Of a stretch of DNA of 36,348 bases, positions 3,751-29,139 are shown one piece after another (position 1 is the first letter of the stretch; the number at the start of each line of letters is the position of its first letter). The notes beneath the pieces are model-generated. The model ran no database searches. It was not told the DNA's origin and was given only the letters and a program-made list of their open reading frames with translations. The stretch covers positions 1 to 36,348 of the forward strand of contig DASQJL010000047.1 in the NCBI GenBank assembly GCA_035631035.1, given 5' to 3'. Made by a program: the position numbers and the translations under genes. This DNA comes from Candidatus Binatia bacterium (lineage in GTDB: Bacteria; Eisenbacteria; RBG-16-71-46; SZUA-252).

Positions 3751-3811
3751 TCGGTCTCCTGGTTGGGGTCGGATCGAAACGCCCGGGACGGTGCGTCGCG
3801 GGGCGGCGCTC

Positions 3812-6800: not shown

Positions 6801-7978
6801 CCGGACGCGGGAACGGGATCGTGGAAGAGGCGCGCCGCGAGGTCCTCCGTGAACGACGCCGCCGGGGCCGGCCAGGCGTCGCGGGTGGCGCCGACGTAGG
6901 CGAACGCTCCCCCGTCCGGCCGCCGCGTGAGCCGCTCCGCCACGCAGTCGTAGTCCACCCCGGCCGAAGAGCAGTTCGTCGCGATCCAGAGCGCCGCCGA
7001 ATCGCCGTTCGTGATCCCCGCCAGGTCCCCGAGCGTGAGGAGCTCCGAGCCGACGGAGAGCTGGGAACGCGCTCCGTGACTGATCTCGTACACGACGTTG
7101 TAGCCGCGCGAGAGGGCCGCGAGCGCATTGGCCCGGTTCAGGTGGGCGGCCCCGGGATAGGCCGTGTCGTTCTCGTAGTAGCGGTCCACGGCGGCGCAGC
7201 CGGGCGCGCCGGCCCGCAGCGCCTCCCCCTCCGCGGCTCCGTCCAGCTGGATGGGACCCCCGGGCGTCCAGTTCTGGGGCACGAGCACCTCGGCCAGCAC
7301 GAGCTGTTTCGCGAGCATCGGCGTGAGGGGCGCGCCGGCATAGCGAAGCGCTTTGTCCACGAGGGCGGTCGCGTCCGCCCGGCTCGCCGCCGAGAGTCTT
7401 CCGACGGCGATGTCGGGCTGCATGTCGAGGCCGTCGGCGGTCTCGCCGTAGATCCCGTTTCCGTTCGCGTCCCAGGTGCCGTCGAGGTCGGCGTAGTAGG
7501 CATCGGTGGGGATGTCCTCGACCGTCGCGAAGGTCACGCGGACCATCCGCAGCGGCACGGTATCGTGGTCCCCCGCCAGGATCGCCCACCGGATCCCCCA
7601 GAGGTCGCGCGCCGATCGCAGGAAGGAGCGGATCGCCTGCGGCAGGTCGTTCGAGCGCGGGTCAGCCGCGCGGATCGTGGAGATCCCCCGGACCACGGTC
7701 GGCCTGCCGATGCGGGTCTGGTAGTCGGCCAGCCGCTGGAAGATATCGGCCAGCGAATCGGGGGCGACGATCACGCAGTCGACCGGAGAGCCGGACGTGG
7801 ACGGAAGGAGCGTCGGCGCAAAGGGCGCCGCCTTTCCAGGCTGGCCGAAGAGCCGCGTCGCCCGGGGCGGCAGGGCCCCCTCCGCGCCACCGGCGACGAA
7901 AAGGCCCGCCAGAATCAGGAGGAGGAGCCGGAGGAAGGTGAGGCGATTCGTGAAGGAAGAAATGGAAACCGCTGTCAT
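3812..7978 (-). CDS. secreted C25 (gingipain-type) peptidase-like protein with FG-GAP propeller and FlgD/T9SS-like C-terminal sorting domain
   Basis: 1388 residues. A Sec signal peptide (hydrophobic core about residues 14-30, small residues before Ala35) is followed by a C25 peptidase domain. The catalytic pair is visible as His301 in 'YEISHGARS' and Cys336 in 'WIATNCSSAG'. Next come two CARDB/EF-like segments ('DGNGLIEAGE', 'DTNGNGVLEAGE'), a fibronectin-III-like domain, and seven or eight FG-GAP/VCBS repeats marked by 'DLDGDG'-type loops. The end is a FlgD-Ig-like domain starting 'NRPNPFNP' and finishing 'SGVYFYRAEIGG', the pattern of a type IX-type sorting signal. It is probably exported and attached to or released from the cell surface; the substrate is unknown. 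A GTG at 8017 is an alternative start with a GAGG upstream, but the ATG at 7978 gives the better signal peptide. It sits 57 bases after the membrane glycosyltransferase-like gene. Confidence 0.92.
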   Translation of the reverse strand: MTAVSISSFTNRLTFLRLLLLILAGLFVAGGAEGALPPRATRLFGQPGKAAPFAPTLLPSTSGSPVDCVIVAPDSLADIFQRLADYQTRIGRPTVVRGISTIRAADPRSNDLPQAIRSFLRSARDLWGIRWAILAGDHDTVPLRMVRVTFATVEDIPTDAYYADLDGTWDANGNGIYGETADGLDMQPDIAVGRLSAASRADATALVDKALRYAGAPLTPMLAKQLVLAEVLVPQNWTPGGPIQLDGAAEGEALRAGAPGCAAVDRYYENDTAYPGAAHLNRANALAALSRGYNVVYEISHGARSQLSVGSELLTLGDLAGITNGDSAALWIATNCSSAGVDYDCVAERLTRRPDGGAFAYVGATRDAWPAPAASFTEDLAARLFHDPVPASGTTLGEAVEDARSALLPAAQTETPDRWTYFESILIGVPSLPIWRCPPSSFAVTRPASVPLSGRSIAVTVTAGGSPAESALVVAWKAGEDYVTALTNGAGQATLPFHPSATGKFSIAVTKEGVRPYLDSLNVAADAPAHFAALGVAPSDAVVGDGNGLIEAGESFRVAGVVKNTGGAASSGPVTLEIKAASGPAVVDRGIAVVGAIAAGAQVTIPDSLIAHALAVPNAPGIARLRFIARDAARADTADVDVEVAAASLLFTKVVRTDTNGNGVLEAGENGTFTWTVGNDGDGRARNPAILAVNPGAGITFVTASGSVPSIAPGGTATSTSIVIHAASAPPQHLFDLRITDAYGHVWTLPVEGAAPPAPAGLRAPASGVSGVTLSWDAVAAPDLLGYVVLRSGPDTTAVPVEASPLPVRRTSAFESAGLAPLTAYWFAVSAVDSSGNRSPRTPWILVSTTPGSVSGWPAPLAAATSASVCLADLDGDGRPEVIAGADQLYAFHADGSELRDGDANPVSLGVFSTLLHNIASTPAAADVNLDGAPEIIAASWDDSLVAVFRANGTLLPGWPKKGAAPFWSSPAVGDLDGDGAPDIVVGSNASRLYAWHADGTELRDGDANPATDGVYFLPVGTVISSPAIADLDVDGRREVVFGTSGGRVYALRDGAPLTGWPFTANGLMSSSPAIGDVLPGGGLEIAMACSNDSLYLLTAAGRRAPGWPRPLELTPGNGRVPSPVLAPLRRHLGDPSLDVIVCGTDGRVRAYDGAGAVLPGWSAVQLGAGSEASPAVADLNGDGALEVLIGAEDRRLYAFHFDGTPVSGFPIEIGAEVRSTPAVWDLDGDGACEIALTGWDGAVHVWRYPGTFASVGMAWPMFHHDNWHTGVASFPILTSADPQPVPQPSPSPEARASLGQNRPNPFNPVTVIGFRVPGPAAADVTLRVYAADGRLVRTLVSRRFDPGYHEARWDGAGDSGAPLASGVYFYRAEIGGSTFTRKMALLR

Positions 7979-8035
7979 CAACTCACTTGGACGGGGTCTT
8001 GGGATGGACCGGCTCACGCGCCGCTTCCCTCGATG

Positions 8036-9628
8036 CTACTCCTCCGCGACCCGCGGATGCAATCGGTCGTAGAGCGTCCAGTCGATGGCGTAGACCGAGT
8101 AGACATAGGGGGTCGGCCGCGTGATCCCGAGATCGGGGATCGACCGCGAGAAGAGGAATCGATAGGGCGTGGCCGGATCGTCGGGGGGCGTCAGGCGCCC
8201 TTCCCGGGTGCTCCGATCGATGAGATAGGCGGGCCGGCCGACCGGTTCGTACAGGAGATTCCAGACCACCGCGTCGTACCCGTCGCGGACGGAGGCCCGC
8301 GCCATGCCGGGGGTGACGAGCCCGTACAGGTCGAGCACCGGCCGGTCGGAGTAGTAGCCGAAGGCGCCGATGTCGGGGACCGCGAAGAGGGTGCCCGGCG
8401 CGGTGCGCTCGCGGGCCCAGAGCCCGAGCGACGCCAGCGAGTCGCGGAGTCCCTGCGTGTGGCGCCGCGCGTGGGGTGCGCTGACGGCCAGGGTCACGTA
8501 GAGGTTCTGCGCCGCGAAGAGGAGGACCGCCGCCGCCAGCGCGGCCGCGCGCCGCCGCGGCGCCCACCCGCGCGAGGCGTCGCGCAGCGCGGCCAGCCCG
8601 ATGAGGACGATCGCGGGCATCACGGGCACCAGGTAGCGCGAGACCACCTGGACCCCTTCGGCGGCGAACGCGAAGACCAGAAGGAGGGGCCACGCCAGGA
8701 CCAGTCCCCACCAGGCGCGCCTGCCCCGCGACGTGCCGGCGGCTGCCCAGGGTCGCAGCAGAGCGAGCGCGAGCACCGCGATCCCGACCGGCACGAGATC
8801 GGCCGCGAGCAGCGCGCGGATCGACTCGCGGAGGGCCGATGCCGCCCGGCCGGGGTCGAGCCACGCCGCCGCCTTGGCGGCGCCGGTGTTTGGAAGCAGG
8901 CGATGGAACCACGCCCATGCCAGGGCCAGCCAGGGCGACGCGGCGAGCGCGGCTCCCCCCGCGAGCGCCGCGGCGCGGCCGGCCCGCGCGCGGGGATCGG
9001 CGGCCCACCCCACGGCGGTCAGCGCGAGCAGGAAGAGGAGGAGGAATTCGGGCCTCGCCAGGAACGCGGCCCCGAGCGCGAGCCCCGCCCACACGGGTCC
9101 GTGCCCATGGAGCAAGGCGCGCGCGAGGAGGAGAAACGCAAGCAGGGCGAGCGCGAGCGCGAGCGGGGTTTCCATTCCGGAGAGACCCCACCGCACCGAC
9201 CAGGCGTCGACCGCGACCAGGGCCGCCGCCGCAAGCGCCCATCGAGGCTCCCACCGGAGCGCGCGCGCGATTGCCGCCATGAGGAGCACGGAGGCCGCCG
9301 TGAAGAGGGCGCCCCAGACCTTCGCGGCGGCCGCGAGCGGCGGCATGGTGTCGGCCGTGGCGGGGGTCGCCCCCGCGCCGTGGAGGAACGCGCCCGTTCC
9401 GGCGAGGAGCAGCACCCAGAGCGGGCTCGTGGCGCCGTACGTGGGCTCTCCCGCGTTGAACGAGAAGCCCTCGCCACGGATCAGGTGCTTCGCGAACTGA
9501 AGGTGGATGAACGTGTCGTCGGTAAGGTAGCCGCGGAACGGCAGGAGGAGCGCCAGGGCCAGGAGAGCGAGACATCCGAGCGCCACCTGATGGCGCGCCC
9601 GCCAGGCGGAGGCGGGCCGGTCGCTCAC
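8036..9628 (-). CDS. polytopic membrane protein, GT-C/GT39-like
   Basis: 530 residues with about ten to twelve hydrophobic segments. The first periplasmic loop reads 'GYLTDDTFIHLQFAKHLIRGEGFSFN', with the acidic pair expected of GT-C (ArnT/PMT-like) glycosyltransferases that use a lipid-linked sugar. The following 'YGATSPLWVLLLA' is also usual in that group. The C-terminal part is soluble and probably periplasmic. It likely moves a sugar onto an envelope acceptor, perhaps together with the nearby GT4 enzyme, but substrates cannot be read from the sequence. The start is GTG at 9628 and no Shine-Dalgarno sequence is evident. It follows tkt by 37 bases, a gap containing a small tandem repeat. 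Confidence 0.8.
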   Translation of the reverse strand: MSDRPASAWRARHQVALGCLALLALALLLPFRGYLTDDTFIHLQFAKHLIRGEGFSFNAGEPTYGATSPLWVLLLAGTGAFLHGAGATPATADTMPPLAAAAKVWGALFTAASVLLMAAIARALRWEPRWALAAAALVAVDAWSVRWGLSGMETPLALALALLAFLLLARALLHGHGPVWAGLALGAAFLARPEFLLLFLLALTAVGWAADPRARAGRAAALAGGAALAASPWLALAWAWFHRLLPNTGAAKAAAWLDPGRAASALRESIRALLAADLVPVGIAVLALALLRPWAAAGTSRGRRAWWGLVLAWPLLLVFAFAAEGVQVVSRYLVPVMPAIVLIGLAALRDASRGWAPRRRAAALAAAVLLFAAQNLYVTLAVSAPHARRHTQGLRDSLASLGLWARERTAPGTLFAVPDIGAFGYYSDRPVLDLYGLVTPGMARASVRDGYDAVVWNLLYEPVGRPAYLIDRSTREGRLTPPDDPATPYRFLFSRSIPDLGITRPTPYVYSVYAIDWTLYDRLHPRVAEE

Positions 9629-17151: not shown

Positions 17152-19104
17152 TTGAGCCGCGGCCTTCCCTCGTTCCTCCGATCCGGCGGCCTCCAGCTGG
17201 GTCTCACCGCGCTCTGCGCCGCCGCGGGGATCGCGGGCGCCCTCGTGGGTCGCGCCCACCCGCACTCCACGCTTCATTACGTTCTGTACGGCCTGGCCTA
17301 TCTCTCGGGAGGCTTCGGGCCGGGACGCGAGCTGATCGCGAACCTCCTCGCGCGCCAGCTCGACATCAACCTCCTCATGGTCGCCGCCGCGGCGGGCTCC
17401 GCCGCGCTCGGGCACTGGGGCGAGGGAGCGGTGCTCCTCTTCCTCTTCTCGCTGAGCGGCGCGCTCGAGCGGATCACCATGGAGCGGACCGCGCGCTCGA
17501 TCGAGTCGCTGGTCCAGCTCCGGCCCGACACCGCCCTGGTGCTTCGGGACGGCGCCGAGACGCGCGTCCCCGTCGAGGCGATCGAAGTCGGCGAGACCGT
17601 GCGCACCCTTCCCGGCGAGCGGTTCGCCGTGGACGGCGTCGTCCTCGAGGGCTCCTCGTCGGCGGACGAATCGACCCTGACCGGCGAAGCGGAGCCGGTC
17701 GAGAAGGAGCCCGGCGGCTACGTCTACGCGGGGACGGTGAACCTGCGCGGGGCGCCGCTCGTCCGCGTCGAGAAGCGTCCCGAGGAGACGACCCTCTCGC
17801 GCATCGTCCGCGCGGTGCAGGAGGCGGGAAAGGCCAAGTCCACCGCCGAGCGCATCGTGGACCGCTGGCAGCGCCCCTACGTGATCGGCGTCTTCTCGGC
17901 GGCCGCGCTCGCCGGCTTCGTTCCCTGGCTCCTCGGGGCCTCCAGCGTGGAGGCCGTCTACCGCGGGCTGGTCCTCCTCGTCGCGGCCTCCCCCTGCGCC
18001 GTCGTCATCGCCACGCCGGCGGCCATGCTCTCGGCGATCACCCACGCGGCCCATCACGGCGTCCTCTTCAAAGGAAGCGTCCACCTCGAACGCCTCGCGG
18101 GCGTCACGGCGATCGCGGTGGACAAGACCGGCACCGTGACGCACGGCCGTCCGCGCGTCGTGGCGGTCTCGGACGCGGCGGAAGCCGGAGGCGGCGAGGA
18201 CCTGCTCCGGCTGGCCGCCTCGGTCGAGGCCCGGAGCGAGCACCACCATGGCCGCGCGGTGGTGGCCGAGGCCGAGCGACGGGGCCTGGCGCTGGCGCCC
18301 GTCACCGAATTCGAGAGCCACGCCGGGCAGGGAGTGCACGGCCACGTCGAAGGGCTCTGGGTCGGCGTCGGACGCGAAGCGCTCTTCCAGCAGCACGAGG
18401 CGCCGCTCCCGCGCGAGGCCGCGACGCTCCTCGCGGGATGGCGCGACGAAGGGCGCACCGCGCTCCTGGTGCTGGCATGCGCCCATCCGGGAGGAGCGCG
18501 CCCGGGGAACGGTCACGATCCGCGCTGGGGCGCCATCGCGGTCGCCGATACGATCCGGCCGAACGCGCGGGCGGCGATGGCCGCCTGCCGGCGGCTCGGC
18601 ATCCGCCACATCGCCCTCCTGACCGGCGACCACGAGGGCGTCGCGCGCGCGATCGGCAAGGAGATCGGAGCCGACGAGGTGCGCGCCGGCCTTCATCCCG
18701 AGCAGAAGGTGAGCGCGGTGCACCAGCTCTCGCGACGCTGGGGCGGGCTCGCCATGGTCGGCGACGGCGTGAACGACGCGCCGGCGCTCGCCACCGCGAC
18801 CGTGGGCGTCGCGATGGGCGGCGCAGGCACTGACGTGGCGCTGGACACGGCGGACGTGGTGCTGATGCGTGACGACCTGGAAGGGATCCCCTTCGCGATC
18901 TGGCTCGCGCGCAAGGCCCGCCGCGTGACGGCGCAGAGCCTCTCACTGGCCTTCGGCGTCATCGGGATCCTGGTCGCGAGCACGCTGGCCGGATTCCTTC
19001 CCCTGTGGCTCGCGGTCGTCTGCCACGAAGGAAGCACGCTGCTCGTGATCGCAAACGGCGTGCGGCTCCTCGGCATCCGGCACCCGGAGTTCGACCTGGC
19101 ATGA
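17152..19104 (+). CDS. P1B-4-type heavy-metal-transporting ATPase
   Basis: 650 residues. P-type hallmarks are the actuator TGE (residues 177-179), phosphorylated Asp324 in DKTGT, and 'MVGDGVNDAPAL'. The transmembrane metal motif is SPC (280-282), not CPC, and the last helix has HEGST (625-629). This pair is diagnostic of the P1B-4 subgroup, which exports Co, Zn, Fe or related divalent ions, rather than of Cu+ pumps. There is no N-terminal HMA domain, which also fits P1B-4. The usual SEHP of the nucleotide domain reads SEHH. The start is probably TTG at 17152; no ATG or GTG suits better. The stop overlaps the cytochrome start as ATGA, suggesting coupling. The metal identity is an inference. 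Confidence 0.93.
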   Translation: MSRGLPSFLRSGGLQLGLTALCAAAGIAGALVGRAHPHSTLHYVLYGLAYLSGGFGPGRELIANLLARQLDINLLMVAAAAGSAALGHWGEGAVLLFLFSLSGALERITMERTARSIESLVQLRPDTALVLRDGAETRVPVEAIEVGETVRTLPGERFAVDGVVLEGSSSADESTLTGEAEPVEKEPGGYVYAGTVNLRGAPLVRVEKRPEETTLSRIVRAVQEAGKAKSTAERIVDRWQRPYVIGVFSAAALAGFVPWLLGASSVEAVYRGLVLLVAASPCAVVIATPAAMLSAITHAAHHGVLFKGSVHLERLAGVTAIAVDKTGTVTHGRPRVVAVSDAAEAGGGEDLLRLAASVEARSEHHHGRAVVAEAERRGLALAPVTEFESHAGQGVHGHVEGLWVGVGREALFQQHEAPLPREAATLLAGWRDEGRTALLVLACAHPGGARPGNGHDPRWGAIAVADTIRPNARAAMAACRRLGIRHIALLTGDHEGVARAIGKEIGADEVRAGLHPEQKVSAVHQLSRRWGGLAMVGDGVNDAPALATATVGVAMGGAGTDVALDTADVVLMRDDLEGIPFAIWLARKARRVTAQSLSLAFGVIGILVASTLAGFLPLWLAVVCHEGSTLLVIANGVRLLGIRHPEFDLA

Positions 19105-19616
19105 CGCCGGTCCCCCACGGGCTCCTGTCCCTCGCGATCCCGGCCTTTCTCGCCATGGTCGCCCTGTCCGCGCCCGGATGCGGCCGCAAGGCGCCCGAGA
19201 CGCCGGCGGCATCCGCTCCCGTCTCTCCCTACGACACCGGCCCGCGCGCCGGGGAGTTCCCCGTCGCGGAGCGCCTGGCGGAAAAGGGGCGGGACCTTTT
19301 CAAGCAGAAGGGGTGCACCGCCTGCCACGCGTTCGGGCGGCTCCTCACGGGGCCGGACCTCCGGGGCGTGTCGATGCGGCGGAGCGCGCGATGGATGGAG
19401 ATGCAGATCCTCCATCCCGACGTGATGGTGACGGAGGACCCGATCACCATCGACCTCTACAACACCTACCTCGTGCGCATGGCGAACCAGGGGCTCACGC
19501 CGGACGAGGCCAGGTGCGTGATCGAATATCTCAAGTGGGTGGACGAGGATTCGACGAAGGCCCCCGTCATCCCACCCTCGACCAATCCACCCACGCCGCC
19601 GCCCCCGAGCAGCTAG
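19101..19616 (+). CDS. lipoprotein-like monohaem cytochrome c (copy 1)
   Basis: 171 residues. A hydrophobic leader ends at 'SAPGC' (Cys27), a non-ideal lipobox. One haem site, CTACH (72-76), is present, with Met127 in 'MANQGLTPDE' a likely axial ligand. A proline-rich tail closes the protein. It matches the cytochrome at 21052 in about 70 of 109 aligned positions counted by eye, including an unusual shared linker 'VSPYD(T/S)GPRAGE'. It should carry electrons in the periplasm, possibly to NosZ. It overlaps the ATPase gene by ATGA. Its stop shares the palindrome CTAG with the stop of the convergent regulator gene. Confidence 0.9.
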   Translation: MTPVPHGLLSLAIPAFLAMVALSAPGCGRKAPETPAASAPVSPYDTGPRAGEFPVAERLAEKGRDLFKQKGCTACHAFGRLLTGPDLRGVSMRRSARWMEMQILHPDVMVTEDPITIDLYNTYLVRMANQGLTPDEARCVIEYLKWVDEDSTKAPVIPPSTNPPTPPPPSS

Positions 19617-20317
19617 CTTCCCTCCGCGATCTCCCGCAGCTTCTCGCGCGAAGGGATCAGGAAGCGGTTCTCTCCCGAGATCACGATCCGCTCGCGCCCC
19701 CAGCGCGACAGCACCCGGATCGCGGATTCCACGGTGGTCCCCACGAGGTCCGCGATCTCCTGCCGCGTGAGCTGGATCGGGATCTCGATCCCGCCCTTCG
19801 CCTCCTTCCCGAGCCGCTCGGCCAGGGTCAGGAAGAGTTGCGCGATCCGCGCGTCCACTTTCTGGCCGCGCATCTCCTGGAGCTTCCGCGCCATGGCGAC
19901 GACCAGCTTCGTCAGCTCGCGGATGATCGCGCGCGCGAAATCGGGGTTGCGGTCCAGCAGCTCGAAGTAGTCGCGCCGCGGCAGCGTCAGCAGCACCAAC
20001 GGCTCCATGCAGACCGCGCTGGCGGGATAGGGCATGTAGTTGTAGACCGCGATGGCGCCGACCGGCTCACCCTCCTCGAACAGCTCGAGGATCGTGTCCC
20101 CCGTATCGCCATGGGTCACGATCTTCACGCGCCCCTTCACGATGATCGTGAGGTGCTCCGCCGGATCTCCCGTGCGCCAGAGGAAGTCCCCGCGGTCGTA
20201 GTTCTTGAGCGTGGCGAGCGCCGCGAGCCGCTTCTGATCCTCGGAGGAGAGCCCCCGGAAGAGCGGGGTCGCCCGGACCGCCTGGTAGACCCGTTCGGAC
20301 TCCGAGATCAGCGCCAC
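19613..20317 (-). CDS. Crp/Fnr-family transcription regulator
   Basis: 234 residues. An N-terminal cyclic-nucleotide-binding-type beta barrel (about 15-125) leads to a dimerisation helix (about 126-150) and a winged helix-turn-helix, 'LTRQEIADLVGTTVESAIRVLSRW' (183-206). In the recognition helix Glu197 and Arg201 align with the Glu and Arg that read the TGA half-site in CRP and FNR. Only one cysteine (Cys103) is present, so there is no FNR-type iron-sulfur cluster. A haem or NO sensor of the DNR/NnrR kind is possible but unproven. GTG at 20317 is chosen because a strong GGGGAGGGG stands five bases ahead. It is divergent from the nos operon, and a matching palindrome lies between its -10-like box and its start, suggesting negative autoregulation. 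Confidence 0.92.
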   Translation of the reverse strand: MALISESERVYQAVRATPLFRGLSSEDQKRLAALATLKNYDRGDFLWRTGDPAEHLTIIVKGRVKIVTHGDTGDTILELFEEGEPVGAIAVYNYMPYPASAVCMEPLVLLTLPRRDYFELLDRNPDFARAIIRELTKLVVAMARKLQEMRGQKVDARIAQLFLTLAERLGKEAKGGIEIPIQLTRQEIADLVGTTVESAIRVLSRWGRERIVISGENRFLIPSREKLREIAEGS

Positions 20318-20331
20318 ATCCCCTCCCCTCG

Positions 20332-20347
20332 TATGACGGGCGTCATA
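20332..20347. promoter_or_regulatory. Crp/Fnr-type operator, site 1
   Basis: The perfect palindrome TATGAC-GGGC-GTCATA has the TGA-N-TCA geometry of Crp/Fnr-family sites. It lies between a -10-like TATAAG and the GTG start of the regulator gene, where a bound protein would block transcription. Confidence 0.6.
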
Positions 20348-20354
20348 CCCCGAG

Positions 20355-20360
20355 CTTATA
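20355..20360 (-). promoter_or_regulatory. possible -10 box of the Crp/Fnr-type gene
   Basis: TATAAG on the minus strand places a start near 20349, directly at operator site 1. The -35 position (GCTGCC) is poor. Confidence 0.35.
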
Positions 20361-20427
20361 CCATGCCGCAAGCCCATGGCAGCAGAGGCGTTTCACCGAC
20401 CGCCCGCGCCGGACATTCTTCGACCTG

Positions 20428-20518: not shown

Positions 20519-21055
20519 ATGGAAGCCACGACCTTGATCGAGCGCCTGAGGCGCGACCACGAGCGGGTGCTCCGCGACATCACGGAGCTGGAGGGAGCGC
20601 TCGTCCGATCGGCCCCGGCAACACGCGGTGCCGCCGCGGAGGAGCGGATCGGAAGCGTGCTCGCCATGCTCGAACGCCAGTTCCAGACGCACATGGCGGC
20701 CGAGGACCAGATCCTCTACCCCGCCATCAGCCGCGCCATCCCGGCGTCGGCGCCCAGCCTGGAGCCGCTCCACGACGAGCACGCCGAGCTCCGGCAGATG
20801 CTCCATCGCCTACAGGCCACGCTCGGCGAGCCGAAGAGCGCCGATCGCGACGAGCAGATCCCGATCCAGGTCCACGACCTGGCCGACCTGCTCCGCCTGC
20901 ACATCCGCAAAGAAGAATCGCTGGTGTTCCACGTGGCCGCGCGCCTTCTCGCCGACGAAGAGATCGCCGCGGTCCTGAAGCGCATGAACGGGGACGCCGA
21001 CGCCGCCGGCGCGGAGACCCGGAAACCTCTCCTGAAGAAAGGAAGCTCCCGATGA
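20519..21055 (+). CDS. hemerythrin HHE-domain protein
   Basis: 178 residues, mostly helical. Likely di-iron ligands are His14 in 'RDHER', His58 and Glu62 in 'THMAAEDQ', His88 in 'HDEHAE', His128 and Glu132 in 'LHIRKEES'. Proteins of this family bind O2 or NO or help repair iron centres; there is no signal peptide, so it is cytoplasmic. It is the first gene after the operator region, ahead of the cytochrome and nosZ, and overlaps the cytochrome start as ATGA. A role in protecting N2O respiration from O2 or NO is inferred from position. The ATG has GGAGAG close upstream. Confidence 0.88.
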   Translation: MEATTLIERLRRDHERVLRDITELEGALVRSAPATRGAAAEERIGSVLAMLERQFQTHMAAEDQILYPAISRAIPASAPSLEPLHDEHAELRQMLHRLQATLGEPKSADRDEQIPIQVHDLADLLRLHIRKEESLVFHVAARLLADEEIAAVLKRMNGDADAAGAETRKPLLKKGSSR

Positions 21056-21528
21056 ACCGCTCGATCGCCGTCGCCTCGTTCCTCGTTCTCCTTCTGGCCG
21101 CCGCGGGCTGCGGCAGCAAGTCCGAGCCGCAAGGCGCCGGGTCGGGCTCGGGCGCGACCGCGGTGTCGCCGTACGACAGCGGCCCGCGCGCCGGAGAGTC
21201 TCCCGTCGAGCCCGCAATGGCCGAGAAGGGCGAGGGGTTGTTCAAGACCAAGGGGTGCACCGCCTGCCACGCCTACGACAAGCGCATCACCGGCCCCGCT
21301 CTGAAGGGTGTCACGCAGCGCCGCACCGCGGCCTGGATGGAGCAGCAGATCCTCCACCCCGAAGTCATGACGAAGCAGGATCCGATCTCGAAGCAGCTGC
21401 TCGGGACCTACATGGTGCAGATGTCGAACCAGGGCTTGAAGCCCGAGGAGGCCAAGGCGGTCATCGAATATCTGAAGAAGCTCGATGAAGAGTCTTCTGA
21501 GACGCAGCAGGCCGGCGTCGGCAAGTGA
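21052..21528 (+). CDS. lipoprotein-like monohaem cytochrome c (copy 2, nos operon)
   Basis: 158 residues. A short leader ends at 'LAAAGC' (Cys20), a plausible lipoprotein site. It has one CTACH haem site (69-73), and Met124 in 'MSNQGLKPEE' is the likely sixth ligand. It lies 25 bases upstream of nosZ, so electron delivery to NosZ is the obvious role, similar to the NosC cytochromes of Wolinella-type nos clusters. It is closely related to the cytochrome at 19101, and 22 bases around the haem motif are identical (21251-21272 and 19309-19330). AGGAAG precedes the ATG. Confidence 0.92.
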   Translation: MNRSIAVASFLVLLLAAAGCGSKSEPQGAGSGSGATAVSPYDSGPRAGESPVEPAMAEKGEGLFKTKGCTACHAYDKRITGPALKGVTQRRTAAWMEQQILHPEVMTKQDPISKQLLGTYMVQMSNQGLKPEEAKAVIEYLKKLDEESSETQQAGVGK

Positions 21529-21553
21529 ACCAGGAGCCCAAGGAGGCCCATGT

Positions 21554-23455
21554 ATGAAACGGTGGATGCTGGCCGCGCTCGCGGTGGCCGCTCTGGTGGG
21601 CGGCGCCGCGCTGATGCAGGGGTGCACGAAGGGGATACGGGGGGGCGGGTCGGCCGCCGCCAAGACCTATGTGAAGCCGGGTGAATACGACACCTACTAT
21701 GCCTTCCTGTCGGGAGGCCATTCCGGGCAGGTCTTCGTCTACGGCATGCCCTCCTGCCGTTACATCACCACGATCCCGGTCTTCACCCCGGAGTCCGCGA
21801 AGGGCTGGGGCTACGACGAGGAATCGAAGGCGATGCTGAAGGGGATGAACTGGGGCGACGCTCACCATCCCGGCCTCTCGGAGACGGACGGCGACTACGA
21901 CGGTCGCTGGCTCTTCATCAACGACATGCCGCACGCGCGGATCGCCCGGATCGATCTGACCGACTTCACGACGAAGGAGATCTTCGGACCGATCCCGAAC
22001 ATCTCCGCCGCGCACGCCTGCCCCTATCCCACCCCGAACACCGAGTACGTGTTCGCGGCGTCGCGCTTCTCGATCCCGCTTCCCTACCCGACCGTCGACA
22101 AGGTCGAGAACTACGCCAAGGACTTCAAGGGGATCATCGCGGGAGTCAAGGTCTCCCCCGAGGGGCACATGTCGCTCGGTTTCGAGATCCTGATGCCGCC
22201 GTTCGACTGGGATCTGGCGGACGCCGGCAAGGGCCCCAGCCACGGCTGGGAGTTCTTCACCTGCTACAACAGCGAGGAAGCGCACGACTCCCTGGAGATC
22301 AAGGCGTCGCAGAACGAGATGGACTATGTCGCGGCCGTCGACTGGCGCGCGGCGCAGAAGGCGGCTGACGCCGGCGAGGGAACGATGATCGGAGGCGTGA
22401 AGGTGCTCGACCCCAAGGTGACGAAGGGGATCGTCTACCTGGTGCCGGTGCCGAAGAGCCCGCACGGCGTGGACGTGGACCCCAGCGGCCAGTACATCTG
22501 CGCCTCCGGCAAGCTGCAGGCCGAGGTCACCGTGCACAGCTTCGCGAAGCTGATGGCGGGGATCCAGGCGAAGAAGTTCGAGAAGGAGATCGAGGGAATC
22601 CCGGTCCTCGCGTTCAACGACGTGCTCGAGGCGAAGGTGCCCGTGGGGCTGGGACCGCTGCACACCCAGTTCGACGGCAAGGGGAACGCCTACACCTCGC
22701 TCTTCCTCGACTCGCAGATCGCGAAGTGGAAGATCGGACCGCCCTGGAACGTCACGGACAAGATCGACGTCTACTACTCGATCGGTCATCTGATGGTCGC
22801 CGGCGGCGACACCCGGCATCCCTATGGCGACTACATGGTCGCCCTGGACAAGCTCTCCAAGGACCGCTACCTGCCGGTCGGGCCCTCGCATCCCGAGGCG
22901 GCGCAGCTGATCGACATCAGCGGCCCCAAGATGGAGCTTCTCTACGACTTCCCCACCTATCCCGAGCCCCACTACGCGCAGATGATCCGGGCGGACAAGC
23001 TCAAGCCGATGAAGATCTATCCGCTCGCCGACAACAAGAATCCGTATGCGATCAAGAGCGCCGATCAGGCGAGGGTGGAGCGCCACGGGAAGCGCGTGGA
23101 CGCCTATCTCCTCGCAATCCGGACCCACTACACGCCGGACATCGTGCGCGTCGCGCAGGGGGACACGGTCTACTTCCACGTGACGAACCTGGAGCAGGAC
23201 GCCGACATCACGCACGGCTTCGGAATCCTCTTCTCGAACTGCGACATGCAGGTCGAGCCGGGCGAGACCAAGACGATGAAGTGGGTCGCCGAGAAGGCGG
23301 GCGTGACCCCCTTCTACTGCTCCAACTTCTGCAGCGCGCTGCACCAGGAGATGCAGGGATACATCGAGGTGGCGCCGGCCGGCACGCGGATCGCCTCGGT
23401 CTCCAAGCCCAGCCGTGAGCAGCTGGCCCAGGTGGCCCCGCTGCTTCGCCGCTAA
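21554..23455 (+). CDS. nosZ: nitrous oxide reductase, clade II (Sec-type)
   Basis: 633 residues. It reduces N2O to N2 in the periplasm. The seven CuZ histidines are visible: His104 and His105 ('DAHHPG'), His154 ('SAAHACP'), His304 ('KSPHGVDVDPSG'), His370 ('GPLHTQFDG'), His411 ('SIGHLM') and His473 ('EPHYAQ'). The CuA site has His554, then Cys589, Cys593, His597 and Met600 in 'YCSNFCSALHQEM'. The signal peptide lacks twin arginines, which marks clade II, and ends 'LMQGC' (Cys24), so a lipid anchor is possible though the lipobox is imperfect. The ATG at 21554 has AAGGAGG eight bases upstream; an earlier in-frame ATG at 21485 lies inside the cytochrome gene. Confidence 0.98.
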   Translation: MKRWMLAALAVAALVGGAALMQGCTKGIRGGGSAAAKTYVKPGEYDTYYAFLSGGHSGQVFVYGMPSCRYITTIPVFTPESAKGWGYDEESKAMLKGMNWGDAHHPGLSETDGDYDGRWLFINDMPHARIARIDLTDFTTKEIFGPIPNISAAHACPYPTPNTEYVFAASRFSIPLPYPTVDKVENYAKDFKGIIAGVKVSPEGHMSLGFEILMPPFDWDLADAGKGPSHGWEFFTCYNSEEAHDSLEIKASQNEMDYVAAVDWRAAQKAADAGEGTMIGGVKVLDPKVTKGIVYLVPVPKSPHGVDVDPSGQYICASGKLQAEVTVHSFAKLMAGIQAKKFEKEIEGIPVLAFNDVLEAKVPVGLGPLHTQFDGKGNAYTSLFLDSQIAKWKIGPPWNVTDKIDVYYSIGHLMVAGGDTRHPYGDYMVALDKLSKDRYLPVGPSHPEAAQLIDISGPKMELLYDFPTYPEPHYAQMIRADKLKPMKIYPLADNKNPYAIKSADQARVERHGKRVDAYLLAIRTHYTPDIVRVAQGDTVYFHVTNLEQDADITHGFGILFSNCDMQVEPGETKTMKWVAEKAGVTPFYCSNFCSALHQEMQGYIEVAPAGTRIASVSKPSREQLAQVAPLLRR

Positions 23456-23463
23456 CACACGTC

Positions 23464-23493
23464 GCGCGGGGCCGTCCGCAAGCGGCCCCGCGC
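23464..23493 (+). other. strong stem-loop in the nosZ-nosB spacer
   Basis: GCGCGGGGCCG (23464-23474) pairs perfectly with CGGCCCCGCGC (23483-23493) across an 8-base loop, starting nine bases after the nosZ stop. There is no T-tract. It could stabilise the 3' end of a nosZ message or partly stop transcription, giving more NosZ than the downstream accessory proteins. Confidence 0.65.
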
Positions 23494-23504
23494 CCCGAAA
23501 GGGG

Positions 23505-24143
23505 ATGAGTTTCGTGGTTCGTTACCTGACCGGCGGTTTCCGAAGCTCCGAGCGGCGGCTGATCCTTCTCGCCGCGCTCGTGCTCCTGCCCGTCTTCTTC
23601 CTCCCGGTGCTGCCGATCTGGGAGATGCACCTCCGGGCGCCGCAGTATCCGGAAGGACTGAAGCTCACCATCTACTCCAACACCATCCGGGGAGACCTGG
23701 ACAAGGTCAACAGCCTGAACCACTACGTCGGGATGCACGCGATCACCCCCGAGGACTTCGCGGAGTTCCGCTACCTGCCGCAGCTCCTCACGGGGTTCGG
23801 TTTCCTCGCGCTCCTGGCCGGTCTTCTGAACCGCCGTTGGATCGCCGCCCTGGGCTGGCTCCTCTTCACCGGATTCGCCGTGTACATGTTCCGCGACTAC
23901 GTCCTCTGGCTCTACCGCTACGGCCACGAGCTCGACCCCCGCGCGGCGATCACGATGAAGTCGTTCATGCCTCCGGTGATCGGCTATTCCAAAATGGCCA
24001 ACTTCCACGTCCTGAGCCTTCCCGGCCCCGGCACCGTGGTGCTCGGCATCGCCTGGCTGCTCGGTCCTCTGGCGCTCTGGATGGAACGCCGCGCGGAGCG
24101 CGCGCACGCCCACGCCGCGGCCGCCGCGACGGTGGCGGCATGA
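23505..24143 (+). CDS. nosB: NosB-like membrane protein
   Basis: 212 residues with about four transmembrane segments (about 20-40, 90-108, 112-130 and 170-188). Between the first two lies an exported loop of about 50 residues. A protein of this kind directly after nosZ is typical of clade II clusters and is called NosB in Wolinella; its biochemical role is not settled. The call rests on position and topology more than on a motif. The ATG at 23505 directly abuts GGGG; a GTG at 23514 would be better spaced from that purine run and is an alternative start. Its stop overlaps nosD as ATGA. Confidence 0.75.
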   Translation: MSFVVRYLTGGFRSSERRLILLAALVLLPVFFLPVLPIWEMHLRAPQYPEGLKLTIYSNTIRGDLDKVNSLNHYVGMHAITPEDFAEFRYLPQLLTGFGFLALLAGLLNRRWIAALGWLLFTGFAVYMFRDYVLWLYRYGHELDPRAAITMKSFMPPVIGYSKMANFHVLSLPGPGTVVLGIAWLLGPLALWMERRAERAHAHAAAAATVAA

Positions 24144-25660
24144 GCCGTCCCTTCCGCGATTCGGGCCGTGCGGAAGCCGGCTCCCGCGATCCCTTCATCG
24201 GCCTGCTCCAGGCCGCGCTCGCGATCGTCCTCCTGGCCGCGGTCGCGATCACCCTCGTCCTTCTCGTGGGGGTGGCCCCGCCGCGCGCCTCGGCCGCGGT
24301 CCGGCGCGTCCCGCCCGGCTCGGCGGTCCCGGCGATCGCGTCGGCGTCGGACGGCGACACTCTGCTGCTCGCCGCCGGCGTCCACCGCGGCCCGATCACG
24401 ATCGCGCGCCGTGTCGCGCTGATCGGCGAGCCGGGCGCCGTGGTGGACGGCGGCGGCCGCGGATCGGTCATCACGGTGGCCGCCGGCGGAGTGCGGATCG
24501 AGCGGCTCTCCATTCGCGCGAGCGGCGACAAGGCCGAAGATCTGGATTCGGGCGTCCGGCTCACGTCGGCGCCTGGCGCGCGGCTCGCCCACCTGCGCCT
24601 GGAGAACGTCCGCTACGGCATCGCGGCCGAGCGTTGCGACGACCTCGACGTCGAGGAATGCACGCTGACGGGCCGCGTGGTGCCCTCGATCGACGCCGCT
24701 CCCGAGATGGACGTCGCCGCGGGCAACGGCATCCACGTCTGGTATTCCCGAGGCGCGCGCGTCCGTCGCACCGAGATCCGGCGCTTCATGGACGGGATCT
24801 ATCTCTCCTTCGCCGACTCGATCCGGATCGAGGGGTGCGGCTCCTCGGGCAACGGCCGCTACGGCCTCCACACCATGTACTGCCAGGACAACCGGATCGC
24901 GGAGAACCGCTTCACCGGCAACATCGCCGGGTGCGCGATCATGTTCTCGAACCACCTGGAGCTCGCCCGGAACGATTTCATGCACAACCGCGGCCCGCGG
25001 ACCTACGGCATCCTGCTGCGCGACTGCTCGGACGGCTTCTTCCACGAAAACCGCCTGGTCGACAACACGATCGCGGTCTTCATGGACGGATCCAACCGGA
25101 ACCACATCCACGGCAACCTGGTGCAGGACGACGGCTGGGGCGTGATCCTCTTCTCCTCCTGCGACGGCAACGAGTTCGCGGGGAACGATTTCGTGAACAT
25201 CGACTACCCGGTGGCGCTGGACATGAGGCGCACCGACAACCGGTTCGACGACGGCGCGCGCGGCAACTACTGGAGCGCGAGCGCCCCCTACGACCTGAAC
25301 GCCGACGGCATCGGCGACGTGCCTTACGGTCCCGTGAGCGCGTTCGCTTTCCTCTCGAAGCAGTATCCCGACCTGGCGATCTTCGGCGAGAGCCCCGCTG
25401 CGGGGGCGCTCTCCCTTGCCGAGCGCACGATCCCGGCGCTCCGTCCGAGCGAGGCTCTGGACCACTACCCCCTGGTCCACCCCGCCGGCGCGGGCGTCGG
25501 GTCACGCTCGGCGGCGGGCGACTTGCCCGCTGCCGCATCGTTCGGCTCGGATCCCGCTTCGGGCACCCGACGCGCGGCGCCGCGCGCCGCGGCCGCCGGC
25601 TTCCTCCTGCTCGCCGGGGCGGGCGCGATCGGCATCGCCCGGCGGAGGGGCTCACGATGA
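24140..25660 (+). CDS. nosD: NosD, periplasmic beta-helix copper-site maturation protein
   Basis: 506 residues. A long N-terminal leader with a hydrophobic segment (about 22-45) precedes a CASH-type right-handed beta-helix made of repeats such as 'DNRIAENRFTGN', 'LELARNDFMHN' and 'RNHIHGNLVQDDGWGVILFSSCDGNEFAGNDF'. It ends with the NosD-type 'GNYWS...YDLNADGIGDVPYGP'. Unusually, it closes with a hydrophobic helix and 'RRRGSR', which could anchor the C-terminus. With NosF and NosY it is needed for assembly of the NosZ copper-sulfur site. It overlaps nosB and nosF by four bases each. Confidence 0.94.
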   Translation: MSRPFRDSGRAEAGSRDPFIGLLQAALAIVLLAAVAITLVLLVGVAPPRASAAVRRVPPGSAVPAIASASDGDTLLLAAGVHRGPITIARRVALIGEPGAVVDGGGRGSVITVAAGGVRIERLSIRASGDKAEDLDSGVRLTSAPGARLAHLRLENVRYGIAAERCDDLDVEECTLTGRVVPSIDAAPEMDVAAGNGIHVWYSRGARVRRTEIRRFMDGIYLSFADSIRIEGCGSSGNGRYGLHTMYCQDNRIAENRFTGNIAGCAIMFSNHLELARNDFMHNRGPRTYGILLRDCSDGFFHENRLVDNTIAVFMDGSNRNHIHGNLVQDDGWGVILFSSCDGNEFAGNDFVNIDYPVALDMRRTDNRFDDGARGNYWSASAPYDLNADGIGDVPYGPVSAFAFLSKQYPDLAIFGESPAAGALSLAERTIPALRPSEALDHYPLVHPAGAGVGSRSAAGDLPAAASFGSDPASGTRRAAPRAAAAGFLLLAGAGAIGIARRRGSR

Positions 25661-26589
25661 TCCGACTCGACGACGTCACCAAGCGCTACGGCGCGGTCAC
25701 CGCGGTGGACGGCCTCTCCTTCGCCGTGGAGCCGGGCGAGACCTTCGCGCTGATCGGCCCCAACGGCGCGGGCAAGACCACGACGCTGAAGCTGATCCTG
25801 GGACTGGCGCGCCCGACCTCCGGCCGGATCGCGGTCGGGGTCGCGGGACTTCCGCCGCACGCCGCCGAGACGCGGCGCGGCATGGGCTACGTGCCGCAGC
25901 GGGTAGATCTCCCCGCGGGACGCACCGCGGCCGAGGTGCTCGGCTTTTTCGCGGCGCTCCGCGGCCTGGACGGGAGCGCGGTCTCCCGCGCGCTCGACCG
26001 CGTGGGCATGACGGCGCTGGCCGGACGCCGCGCCTCGGAGCTTTCGGGCGGCTTCGCGCAGCGCCTCCTCCTCGCGCAGGCGCTGCTCGGCGACCCTTCG
26101 CTCCTCGTGCTGGACGAGCCGACCGCCAGTCTCGATCCCGAGGCCACCTGGGAGTTCCGCTCCCTGGTCGAGGGGCTGCGCCGGGACGGCAAGACGATCC
26201 TCCTCTGCTCGCACCTCCTGGCCGAAGTGGAGCGGGTGGCCGACCGCGTGCTGATCCTGGCCGGCGGGCGCCGCGTGGCGCTGGAATCGCTGGCCGACCT
26301 CCGCGCGCGGCAGGCCTCGAGCGCGCGGCTCGAGATCGAGGCGCGGAACGCGGAGGCGGCGGGCGCCGCCCTCGCGCGTCGCGGGATCGCGTACACCCCG
26401 TGGGGCGAGCGGCGCGTTGCCATCGAGGGGGCGAATGGGCGCGGGGTCGCCGCGCTCGAAGCATTGCGCGAGGCCGGCGTGGAAATCCGCACGTTCGAGC
26501 TGACGCGGCCCACGCTGGAAGAGATCTTCCTCGCGGCGGTGCGCCAGGAGCGCGAGACGCGCGCCACGGCGCCGGAGACCAGGCCATGA
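25657..26589 (+). CDS. nosF: NosF, ABC transporter ATPase
   Basis: 310 residues. Walker A is 'GPNGAGKTT' (34-42), the signature 'LSGGFAQR' (129-136), Walker B 'LLVLDEPT' (149-156), followed by the H-loop 'CSH'. The C-terminal 80 residues are the accessory domain usual in NosF. It powers the NosDFY complex at the inner membrane, thought to supply a sulfur species or handle copper for NosZ. It overlaps nosD and the following cupredoxin-like gene as ATGA. Confidence 0.95.
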   Translation: MIRLDDVTKRYGAVTAVDGLSFAVEPGETFALIGPNGAGKTTTLKLILGLARPTSGRIAVGVAGLPPHAAETRRGMGYVPQRVDLPAGRTAAEVLGFFAALRGLDGSAVSRALDRVGMTALAGRRASELSGGFAQRLLLAQALLGDPSLLVLDEPTASLDPEATWEFRSLVEGLRRDGKTILLCSHLLAEVERVADRVLILAGGRRVALESLADLRARQASSARLEIEARNAEAAGAALARRGIAYTPWGERRVAIEGANGRGVAALEALREAGVEIRTFELTRPTLEEIFLAAVRQERETRATAPETRP

Positions 26590-26999
26590 GGCGCTACGGA
26601 CTCCTCGCCCTCGCCGTGCTCGCCGGCGCGGCGCTGATCCTCGCGGCCGCGCGGCCCCGCTCGGTGGCCGTGGCGCCGCGCGCGGTCCCCGCGGAAGGGC
26701 GCGCGAAGCGCACCCTTTCGCTCGTGATCTCCGGAGGGGTCGTCGCACCGGCGCGGACCGAAGTGCCCAAGGGTACCGAGGTCCTCGCGCGTGTCCTGAA
26801 TCGCGATTCTTCCCCGCATCGATTCTCGCTTCTCGGCTACGAGAGCGCGGTATCCCCCGCCGCGCTCTCGCCGGGGGGCGGGGCTACGGTCCGGTTCATC
26901 GCCGACCGCCCCGGCAGCGACTTCGCATGGCTCCTCGACGGGAAGCCCGCCGGGGTCTTCGTCGTACAGGGTTCCCATCTCGTGGAGGGACACCGATGA
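26586..26999 (+). CDS. small membrane-anchored cupredoxin-fold protein lacking most copper ligands
   Basis: 137 residues. A hydrophobic N-terminal helix (4-22) is followed by one cupredoxin-like domain: 'RTEVPKGTEVLARVLNRDSSPHRFSLLGY' and 'LSPGGGATVRFIADRPGSDFAWLLDGKPAGVFVVQG'. One histidine (His78) stands where the first copper ligand is expected. The usual Cys-His-Met loop near the C-terminus is absent, and the domain contains no cysteine. It is not NosL, which has a different fold and a lipobox. Its place between nosF and nosY, with four-base overlaps on both sides, points to a role in NosZ maturation, perhaps in place of NosL. That role is inference. Confidence 0.78.
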   Translation: MRRYGLLALAVLAGAALILAAARPRSVAVAPRAVPAEGRAKRTLSLVISGGVVAPARTEVPKGTEVLARVLNRDSSPHRFSLLGYESAVSPAALSPGGGATVRFIADRPGSDFAWLLDGKPAGVFVVQGSHLVEGHR

Positions 27000-27877
27000 A
27001 CACCGCATCCGCCGTCGCCGCCGCCCCCGTCGCGACGGCGTCCGTTCCGGGCCGCTCGCGCCGCATCGCCGTCATCGCGCGCGAGGAATACCGGCGCGCG
27101 CTGGAGACCCGCTGGCTCTTCGCCTTCACCGCACTCTTCGCGGCGCTCGTTCTCGGCGTCTCCTTCTTCGGTCTCGTGCAGAGCGGCGAGGTCGGCTTTC
27201 AGGGCTTCTCGCGCGTCACCCTGAGCCTCCTGAACCTCGTGCTCTTCACCGTGCCGCTCACCGGGCTGGTGCTCGGGGTGGGCAGCGTGTCGGGCAGCGC
27301 GGAGACGCTGCCGCTCCTGCTCGCCCAGCCGGTCGGCCGCGGCGAGGTCCTCGCCGGCAAGTATCTCGGCCTGACCGCCGCGCTCGGCGCGGCGCAGGCG
27401 ATCGGGTTCGGCGCGGGCGGGCTGATCGTGGCCCTCCAGGCGGGTCCGGACCAGATCCGCGGCTTCGCCGCGCTCACCGCCGTGTCGCTCCTCCTTGGAT
27501 CGCTCTCGCTCGCTGCCGCGCTCGCGCTGGCATCCATCCTGGCCGATCGCGTGAAGGCGCTCGCGGCCGCGGTATTCCTCTGGCTCCTCCTCGTGATCGC
27601 CTACGACCTCGCCGTGCTCGGCGCCACCGCGCTCCTGCGCGGCGTCCCGCTCCAGTCGGTGCTCTTCCCCGCGCTGCTCCTGAACCCGGTGGATCTCGCG
27701 CGCGTCCTGGTGACCCTGGCCGTCGGCTCGGGAGCGCTCTTCGGACCGACCTCCGCGGTGCTCGTGAAGCTCCTGGGCGGCGGCGGCGGCGCGCTCCTCG
27801 GCCTGGGCGTGCTTCTCCTCGAGACCGCCGTTCCCCTCGCCGTGGCGGCCCGCGTCTTCGGCCGCCGGGACTGGTGA
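26996..27877 (+). CDS. nosY: NosY, ABC transporter permease
   Basis: 293 residues with six predicted membrane helices after a cytoplasmic N-terminus. Typical NosY/ABC-2 features are 'RRIAVIAREEYRRALETRWLFAF' at the start and 'SAETLPLLLAQPVGRGEVLAGKYLGL' in the middle. It forms the membrane channel with NosF and NosD. GGAGGG stands six bases before the ATG. It overlaps the cupredoxin-like gene as ATGA and nnrS as GTGA. Confidence 0.94.
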   Translation: MNTASAVAAAPVATASVPGRSRRIAVIAREEYRRALETRWLFAFTALFAALVLGVSFFGLVQSGEVGFQGFSRVTLSLLNLVLFTVPLTGLVLGVGSVSGSAETLPLLLAQPVGRGEVLAGKYLGLTAALGAAQAIGFGAGGLIVALQAGPDQIRGFAALTAVSLLLGSLSLAAALALASILADRVKALAAAVFLWLLLVIAYDLAVLGATALLRGVPLQSVLFPALLLNPVDLARVLVTLAVGSGALFGPTSAVLVKLLGGGGGALLGLGVLLLETAVPLAVAARVFGRRDW

Positions 27878-29139
27878 GGGCCGTGGCAACACCCCTCAGG
27901 CCCGCGCCCGCCCCGCTGGCGGCCGCTCCCGGAGCGACGGCGGCGCGGAAGCCGATCGATCCCTATCGCGTCCTCTTCCCCCTGGGGGTCCTGTACGGGA
28001 TCGTCGGCGCGCTCCTCTGGCCGCTCCATGCCGCGGGGCTCATTCCCTATCCCGCCGTGACACACTGGACCTTGATGATCCAGGGCTTCCAGCACGCCTT
28101 CATCCTGGGCTTCCTGCTCACGTCGATGCCGGCGTGGATGCACTCCCTGCCCAGCCGTCCGTGGGAGCTCGCGACCGCCACCCTGCTCATGCTGGGGGTG
28201 GGCGCCGCGGCGCTCCTCGGCGCGCCCTTCCTCGTGCAGCTCTTCTACGCGGCCACGCTCGCGCTGGTGGTGGTCATGGCGCTCCGCCGCGTGACCCGGA
28301 GCACGTCGCCGCCCCCCGAGGAGTTCCTGCTCGTTGCGTTCGGGCTGCTGCTCGGGTTTGCCGGCGCGGTCATGGCCGCCGGATCCGCGCTGGGCGCCTG
28401 GGCCGAGCCCTCGCCCCGCTTCGGCCTTCGCCTGATCTGGATGGGGATGATCCTCTCCATCGTCCTGGGCGTGGGCGGGCTCCTCGTCCCCACCTTCACG
28501 TCGATGCGCGATCCCCTCGTGATCCCCGGCATCGCGAAGCCGCACGTGCGAAAGCCGCGCCGCATTCTCTATGCCCTGATCGCGCTGGCCATGCTCGGCT
28601 CGCTGCTGCTCGAGGCGTCCGGGCGCGCGGAAGCGGGAGCGCTCCTTCGCGCGGTGACCGGTTCCGTCATGCTGCTCCTCGTCTGGAAGCTCTTCCGGCT
28701 CCCGGGACGCGCCGACCGGGTCTCCTGGTTTCTCTGGGGATCCGGCTGGATGCTGTTCCTGGGGCTCTGGCTGATGGCCCTGGCGCCGGGAACGCTCCTG
28801 ATCGGCGCGCACACGCTCTTCATCGGCGGGTTCGGAGCGCTCTCGGCCGGTATCGCGACGCGCGTGGTGATCCGCCATGGCAGCTATCCGATTGCGCAGG
28901 AAACGCAGGTGCTCCGCCCGGGGATGGCGGCGCTGCTGGCGACCGCGCTCGTGGGCCGGATCCTGGCCGAGATGATCCCCTCGGCGCGCATGACGATGCT
29001 CGCGGTGAGCGGAACGGGATGGATCCTCGCCTGGCTCGTCTGGATCGCCGGCGCGCTGCCGCGCGTGCTGCGCCGGGCCCCGGCCGAGAAGGTCGCGTTC
29101 CAAACGTCACCAAGGCCGAGTCAGCCCACGCCTTTCTAG
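27874..29139 (+). CDS. nnrS: NnrS family membrane protein
   Basis: 421 residues with about twelve membrane helices. It carries the family-type 'MIQGFQHAFILGFLLTSMPAWM' and 'LLIGAHTLFIGGFGALSAGIATRVVIRHG', with histidines in place. NnrS proteins bind haem and copper and support survival under NO stress; they are common in denitrification clusters. The start is GTG at 27874, overlapping nosY as GTGA; GTG at 27883 is possible. It ends the closely coupled nos operon. Confidence 0.92.
   Translation: MRAVATPLRPAPAPLAAAPGATAARKPIDPYRVLFPLGVLYGIVGALLWPLHAAGLIPYPAVTHWTLMIQGFQHAFILGFLLTSMPAWMHSLPSRPWELATATLLMLGVGAAALLGAPFLVQLFYAATLALVVVMALRRVTRSTSPPPEEFLLVAFGLLLGFAGAVMAAGSALGAWAEPSPRFGLRLIWMGMILSIVLGVGGLLVPTFTSMRDPLVIPGIAKPHVRKPRRILYALIALAMLGSLLLEASGRAEAGALLRAVTGSVMLLLVWKLFRLPGRADRVSWFLWGSGWMLFLGLWLMALAPGTLLIGAHTLFIGGFGALSAGIATRVVIRHGSYPIAQETQVLRPGMAALLATALVGRILAEMIPSARMTMLAVSGTGWILAWLVWIAGALPRVLRRAPAEKVAFQTSPRPSQPTPF

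Follow-up and report, generated by a model that had tools for sequence, protein, structure and literature searches.

What does a cupredoxin-like protein without a canonical copper site do inside an operon devoted to copper insertion into NosZ? The main biological sink known for nitrous oxide is NosZ, whose activity under copper shortage is limited by the supply of copper to its CuZ centre. The question is raised by a small gene, which we call CUP, in a 36,348-nucleotide stretch of DNA (the window) from a genome of the phylum Eisenbacteria. The initial annotation had described its product as an anchored cupredoxin tied to the NosZ assembly machinery, and had offered it as a substitute for the copper chaperone NosL, as a structural partner of NosY/NosD or as a Cu(I) handler with other ligands. 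We propose, with a probability of roughly one half, that CUP serves the NosDFY copper-insertion machine as an accessory subunit, linked to NosL and acting in docking.

The operon of the window is a clade II nos operon that runs from a cytochrome c gene through nosZ, a NosB-like gene, nosD, nosF, CUP and nosY to nnrS:

19613..20377, minus strand: Crp/Fnr-type regulator, divergent to the cluster (PF00027, PF13545)
21052..21528, plus strand: c-type cytochrome, 5' of nosZ (Pfam Cytochrom_C)
21485..23455, plus strand: nosZ, Sec-type (clade II) (TIGR04246, 866 bits)
23415..24143, plus strand: NosB-like multi-helix membrane protein, adjoining nosZ (compare the description of NosB in PMC11388526)
24140..25660, plus strand: nosD (TIGR04247, 351 bits)
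25657..26589, plus strand: nosF, ABC ATPase (PF00005)
26586..26999, plus strand: CUP, anchored cupredoxin-like protein
26996..27877, plus strand: nosY, ABC-2 permease (PF12679)
27874..29139, plus strand: nnrS (PF05940)

The conserved start of nosZ probably lies about 23 codons inside its open reading frame. The NosB-like protein has no match in Pfam or NCBIfam, and most related clusters likewise have the Crp/Fnr-type regulator upstream, on the opposite strand. A little upstream of the operon sits another pair of genes, a heavy-metal P-type ATPase beside a second nos-type cytochrome c (17152-19104 and 19005-19616); this ATPase has SPC instead of CPC and no HMA match.

CUP itself is an open reading frame of 137 codons (26586-26999) on the plus strand, slotted between nosF and nosY with an ATGA overlap at either end, just as first annotated. 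Its parts are as follows:

26586..26589, plus strand: ATGA overlap, stop of nosF and start of CUP
26598..26648, plus strand: predicted hydrophobic helix near the N-terminus (residues 5-21), with R23 shortly after it (AlphaFold)
26706..26969, plus strand: predicted cupredoxin-like beta sandwich, residues 41-128, without Cys or Met and without the CuA-type ligand loop
26970..26996, plus strand: C-terminal tail GSHLVEGHR, residues 129-137 (alignments, model and codon check)
26984..26989, plus strand: Shine-Dalgarno-like GGAGGG, 6 nt 5' of the nosY ATG, within the VEG codons of the tail
26996..26999, plus strand: ATGA overlap, stop of CUP and start of nosY

The tie to the NosZ assembly module holds well beyond the window. 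Among 47 genomes of the same phylum (hereafter Eisenbacteria), nine carry a CUP homologue, always within a nos cluster. Every nos cluster of the phylum that no contig end cuts at this point has the gene (9 of 9), and in all of them it stands between nosF and nosY, directly 5' of nosY, whose start it overlaps by 1-4 nt. nosZ is likewise present in 9 of the 47 genomes, eight of which have both genes (Fisher 2.5e-7, relatedness ignored). The two mismatches are contig ends: one contig stops before nosZ (G012) and the other within nosF (G046). A wider survey of 385 genomes over many phyla, 43 of them with nosZ, gave no CUP homologue outside Eisenbacteria except in two genomes of another phylum (G052 and G340), where the domain is part of a fusion. 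CUP thus keeps the conserved cluster position expected of a nos accessory gene, although most clade II NosDFY systems are without it. A scan of genome contigs with the CUP alignment found two loci only, both from Eisenbacteria already in the set, and a plasmid search found none. Weak matches in other phyla proved to be NosZ CuA domains, and one in G122 an ordinary cupredoxin with its copper loop intact.

A confident model gives CUP a cupredoxin fold. AlphaFold2, run on a three-sequence alignment, predicts a beta sandwich with pLDDT 85-96 over residues 41-128, and a Foldseek search of the PDB with this model returned 250 matches at E up to 0.001, headed by cupredoxins and CuA domains. The best is FtrB (8vuk, E 1.4e-6); Thermus CuA (E about 5e-6) and the CuA domains of several NosZ structures (5e-5) are matched as well. 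At the sequence level, Pfam Cupredoxin_1 (PF13473) matches CUP with E 1.2e-5 and 25.7 bits, below its curated cut-off of 27, and matches 6 of the 11 CUP sequences at E up to 1; the cupredoxin matches from a PDB sequence search are weak, as is the profile similarity to the CuA domain of the window's own NosZ. The fold named in the initial annotation is thus upheld by Pfam (near its cut-off), AlphaFold and Foldseek. Hydropathy shows an N-terminal segment in all nine Eisenbacteria members, and we infer that the predicted helix 5-21 stays uncleaved as a membrane anchor.

The classical copper site is gone, in contrast with the CuA domains of the same fold in NosZ and cytochrome oxidase subunit II. 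CUP has no CxxxCxxxHxxM loop, the entire CuA ligand loop of NosZ being missing; the position of the N-terminal His ligand is unconserved, and CUP is a separate anchored protein. The window protein has no Cys anywhere, and its mature part is free of Met, in agreement with the reported absence of a Cys-His-Met loop and of any domain Cys. In the family, Cys is absent from 10 of the 11 members and the canonical copper ligands from all 11, so that neither a type 1 nor a CuA site is present: the loop has collapsed and His78 is not conserved. This speaks against thiol or thioether carriage of Cu(I). The small cupredoxins of the EfeO/FtrB or Cupredoxin_1 type are the best structural match (8vuk, and also 4hcf, whose structure contains bound copper); unlike them, CUP is without such ligands, keeps company with nos genes and ends in a C-terminal tail that is peculiar to it.

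Across the nine Eisenbacteria sequences, whose identity to the window protein is 31-48%, 13 residues are invariant (R23, G84, Y85, P96, P109, G110, V127, G129, S130, H131, L132, G135 and H136), and these, the tail included, are the same in clusters with and without NosL. The tail, with the family consensus GSHLxEGH, is predicted to be disordered (pLDDT under 50 at 134-137). G129 and H131 are invariant in 11 of 11 sequences; L132, G135 and H136 are found in all Eisenbacteria members, and His136 is absent from the fused forms. His78 had been taken for the sole histidine kept, and a potential ligand; in fact there are three (78, 131 and 136), the first of which occurs at its position in the window protein only, and it is 131 and 136 that are conserved. 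Since varied synonymous codons are used at G129, S130, H131 and L132 (Ser130 is written with five codons and His131 with CAT and CAC), the tail is conserved as protein. His136 is always CAC, and the codons for residues 133-135 coincide with the Shine-Dalgarno site that precedes nosY, which means that part of the conservation may not be protein-driven.

How does CUP relate to NosL? NosL (PF05573) is the Cu(I) chaperone for CuZ assembly; its Cu(I) ligands are Cys and, probably, Met (PMC6530538). CUP shares with it the nosF-nosY slot, the process and, probably, a membrane-anchored periplasmic placement. It is not itself a NosL: it has a different fold and no Cys or Met ligands, it gives no PF05573 match, and it coexists with NosL in 5 of the 9 Eisenbacteria clusters, where a nosL with CxxCGM lies directly 5' of CUP. 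In at least nine genomes of other phyla nosL alone fills the slot. In G052 and G340 the slot holds a single open reading frame of 252 or 259 codons, NosL (with CxxCGM) and then the CUP domain, which a profile built from Eisenbacteria CUP only recovers at E 2.2e-10 and 7.7e-8. With 59% identity between them, and each in its own genome of a single genus, the two fused proteins are unlikely to result from misassembly. In a search of open papers we found no description of CUP or of the CUP-NosL fusion, and while the fold is a known one, this NosL-linked nos accessory family appears to be undescribed. We envision that the fusion could serve as a natural construct for structural work.

The initial annotation had pointed out that the window contains no NosL, and this extends to the whole genome. 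Because PF05573 missed the NosL of two genomes (G029 and G045), we added a clade-specific and a broad NosL profile; with all three models, NosL is found neither in the window's genome (97.4% complete) nor anywhere in G039, G021 and G026. A nosL gene elsewhere together with a CUP missing from relatives would have spoken against the initial annotation; what we find is a genome without nosL and a CUP conserved across related clusters. In a tree of NosZ, NosD, NosF and NosY, the branches with good support require that NosL presence changed at least twice while CUP was kept. Because nosL is in the same place wherever it occurs, repeated loss explains this more simply, and a regain within the sampled tree is possible. 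The window's genome (G000) also gives no match to SCO1 or PCuAC, and G026, 100% complete, is likewise without NosL, SCO1 and PCuAC; SCO1 is patchy in both groups, with and without NosL. Copper delivery in the NosL-less genomes with CUP must run otherwise, and a genome without SCO1 and PCuAC makes a copper role for CUP more attractive. We also looked for residues of NosZ, NosD, NosF and NosY that separate lineages with NosL from those without. No clear excess over random partitions emerged, and the sole perfect column, NosZ 377 (Tyr/Phe), is put down to chance, as Phe occurs there in many NosL-containing genomes elsewhere.

To explain these results we favour the partner of NosY/NosD already put forward, widened to include NosL. 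CUP is linked to NosL by position and fusion and has neither Cys nor Met in its mature part in the window, and a docking subunit is therefore preferred: in all likelihood CUP provides a docking site for NosL or apo-NosZ and is not a Cu(I) chaperone of the Cys/Met type. CUP would be a cupredoxin-like domain anchored in the inner membrane, facing the periplasm and devoid of a canonical copper site, and would originally have worked jointly with NosL in their shared slot. NosL would carry Cu(I); CUP, through its cupredoxin domain and GSHLxEGH tail, would hold NosL (or apo-NosZ) against NosD/NosY on the membrane. In some lineages, including that of the window, nosL would have been lost and the docking subunit would have stayed; copper may then reach NosDFY by another way, possibly aided by the tail histidines. 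As CUP survives where NosL is absent, it cannot be a dock for NosL only, and in this proposal it is kept because it also contacts NosDFY or NosZ. CUP is thus a concrete candidate for a copper-delivery partner beyond NosL and NosDFY.

Could CUP instead belong to NosDFY independently of NosL, as an anchored brace between NosY and NosD or as a receptor that recognises apo-NosZ by its CuA domain? This is possible, if on the unlikely side. The constant overlap with the nosY start, the retention of CUP where nosL is absent and a fold near the NosZ CuA domain are all consistent with it, but in the only fusion found CUP is joined to NosL and to neither NosY nor NosD, and most clade II NosDFY systems manage without CUP.

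That CUP stands in for NosL in lineages without it, binding copper by His131, His136 and perhaps Glu134 and carrying it to NosDFY/NosZ, is unlikely. It draws on two genomes lacking NosL, SCO1 and PCuAC, on the slot that nosL takes in other phyla and on the two tail histidines invariant in Eisenbacteria. Against it, five clusters have CUP and nosL side by side and two have them fused, the four NosL-less members gain no shared ligand, His136 is lost in the fused forms, and the Cys and Met ligands of NosL (PMC6530538) are absent. In addition, three nos genomes without NosL (G122, G264 and G276) have no CUP either, and some Bacillota N2O reducers lack NosL (PMC11388526); NosL loss alone therefore demands no replacement. 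The substitute as first worded does not stand, but it is possible that CUP came to substitute for the lost NosL in the window's own lineage. A copper route through the mobile GSHLxEGH tail, by which CUP would deliver or gate histidine-bound copper to NosDFY and CuZ in lineages without NosL, SCO1 and PCuAC, we regard as doubtful.

Two further readings fare much worse. The cupredoxin fold might suggest a redox-active protein that passes electrons to NosZ or acts as a CuA-like relay, but this is very improbable given that all 11 members lack the canonical ligands and that a c-type cytochrome gene already adjoins nosZ. It is just as hard to believe that CUP is a decaying, functionless pseudo-domain retained solely for nosF-nosY translational coupling, as its lost copper site and the overlap of its tail with the Shine-Dalgarno site might hint, since 13 invariant residues at 31-48% identity, written with several synonymous codons, indicate a protein under selection, and the domain is conserved in another phylum.

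Fusions in other nos clusters, too, join neighbours that work together, and like NosL-CUP they unite adjacent genes, with other partners. The NosB-like protein and NosD, separate and overlapping genes in the window (23415-24143 and 24140-25660), form one open reading frame in two Eisenbacteria (L026:691-2649 and L028, reverse complement, 5147-7153). Two genomes from another phylum have a NosD-NosF fusion (L106, 3409-5733, and L107, 3501-5828, both reverse complement), giving proteins of 774 and 775 residues with a periplasmic beta-helix, one transmembrane stretch and an ABC ATPase, the ATPase half being recognised by eye. A protein of 1103 residues (L089:2527-5838) joins a NosR-like part, with FMN-binding and 4Fe-4S portions identified by eye, to NosD. 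Cluster layout varies as well: about 2.5 kb separates nosF from nosL in G144 (L088, reverse complement, 6057-8574), and one nos cluster contains a tandem pair of different nosZ genes (L104, reverse complement, 599-2863 and 2863-5238).
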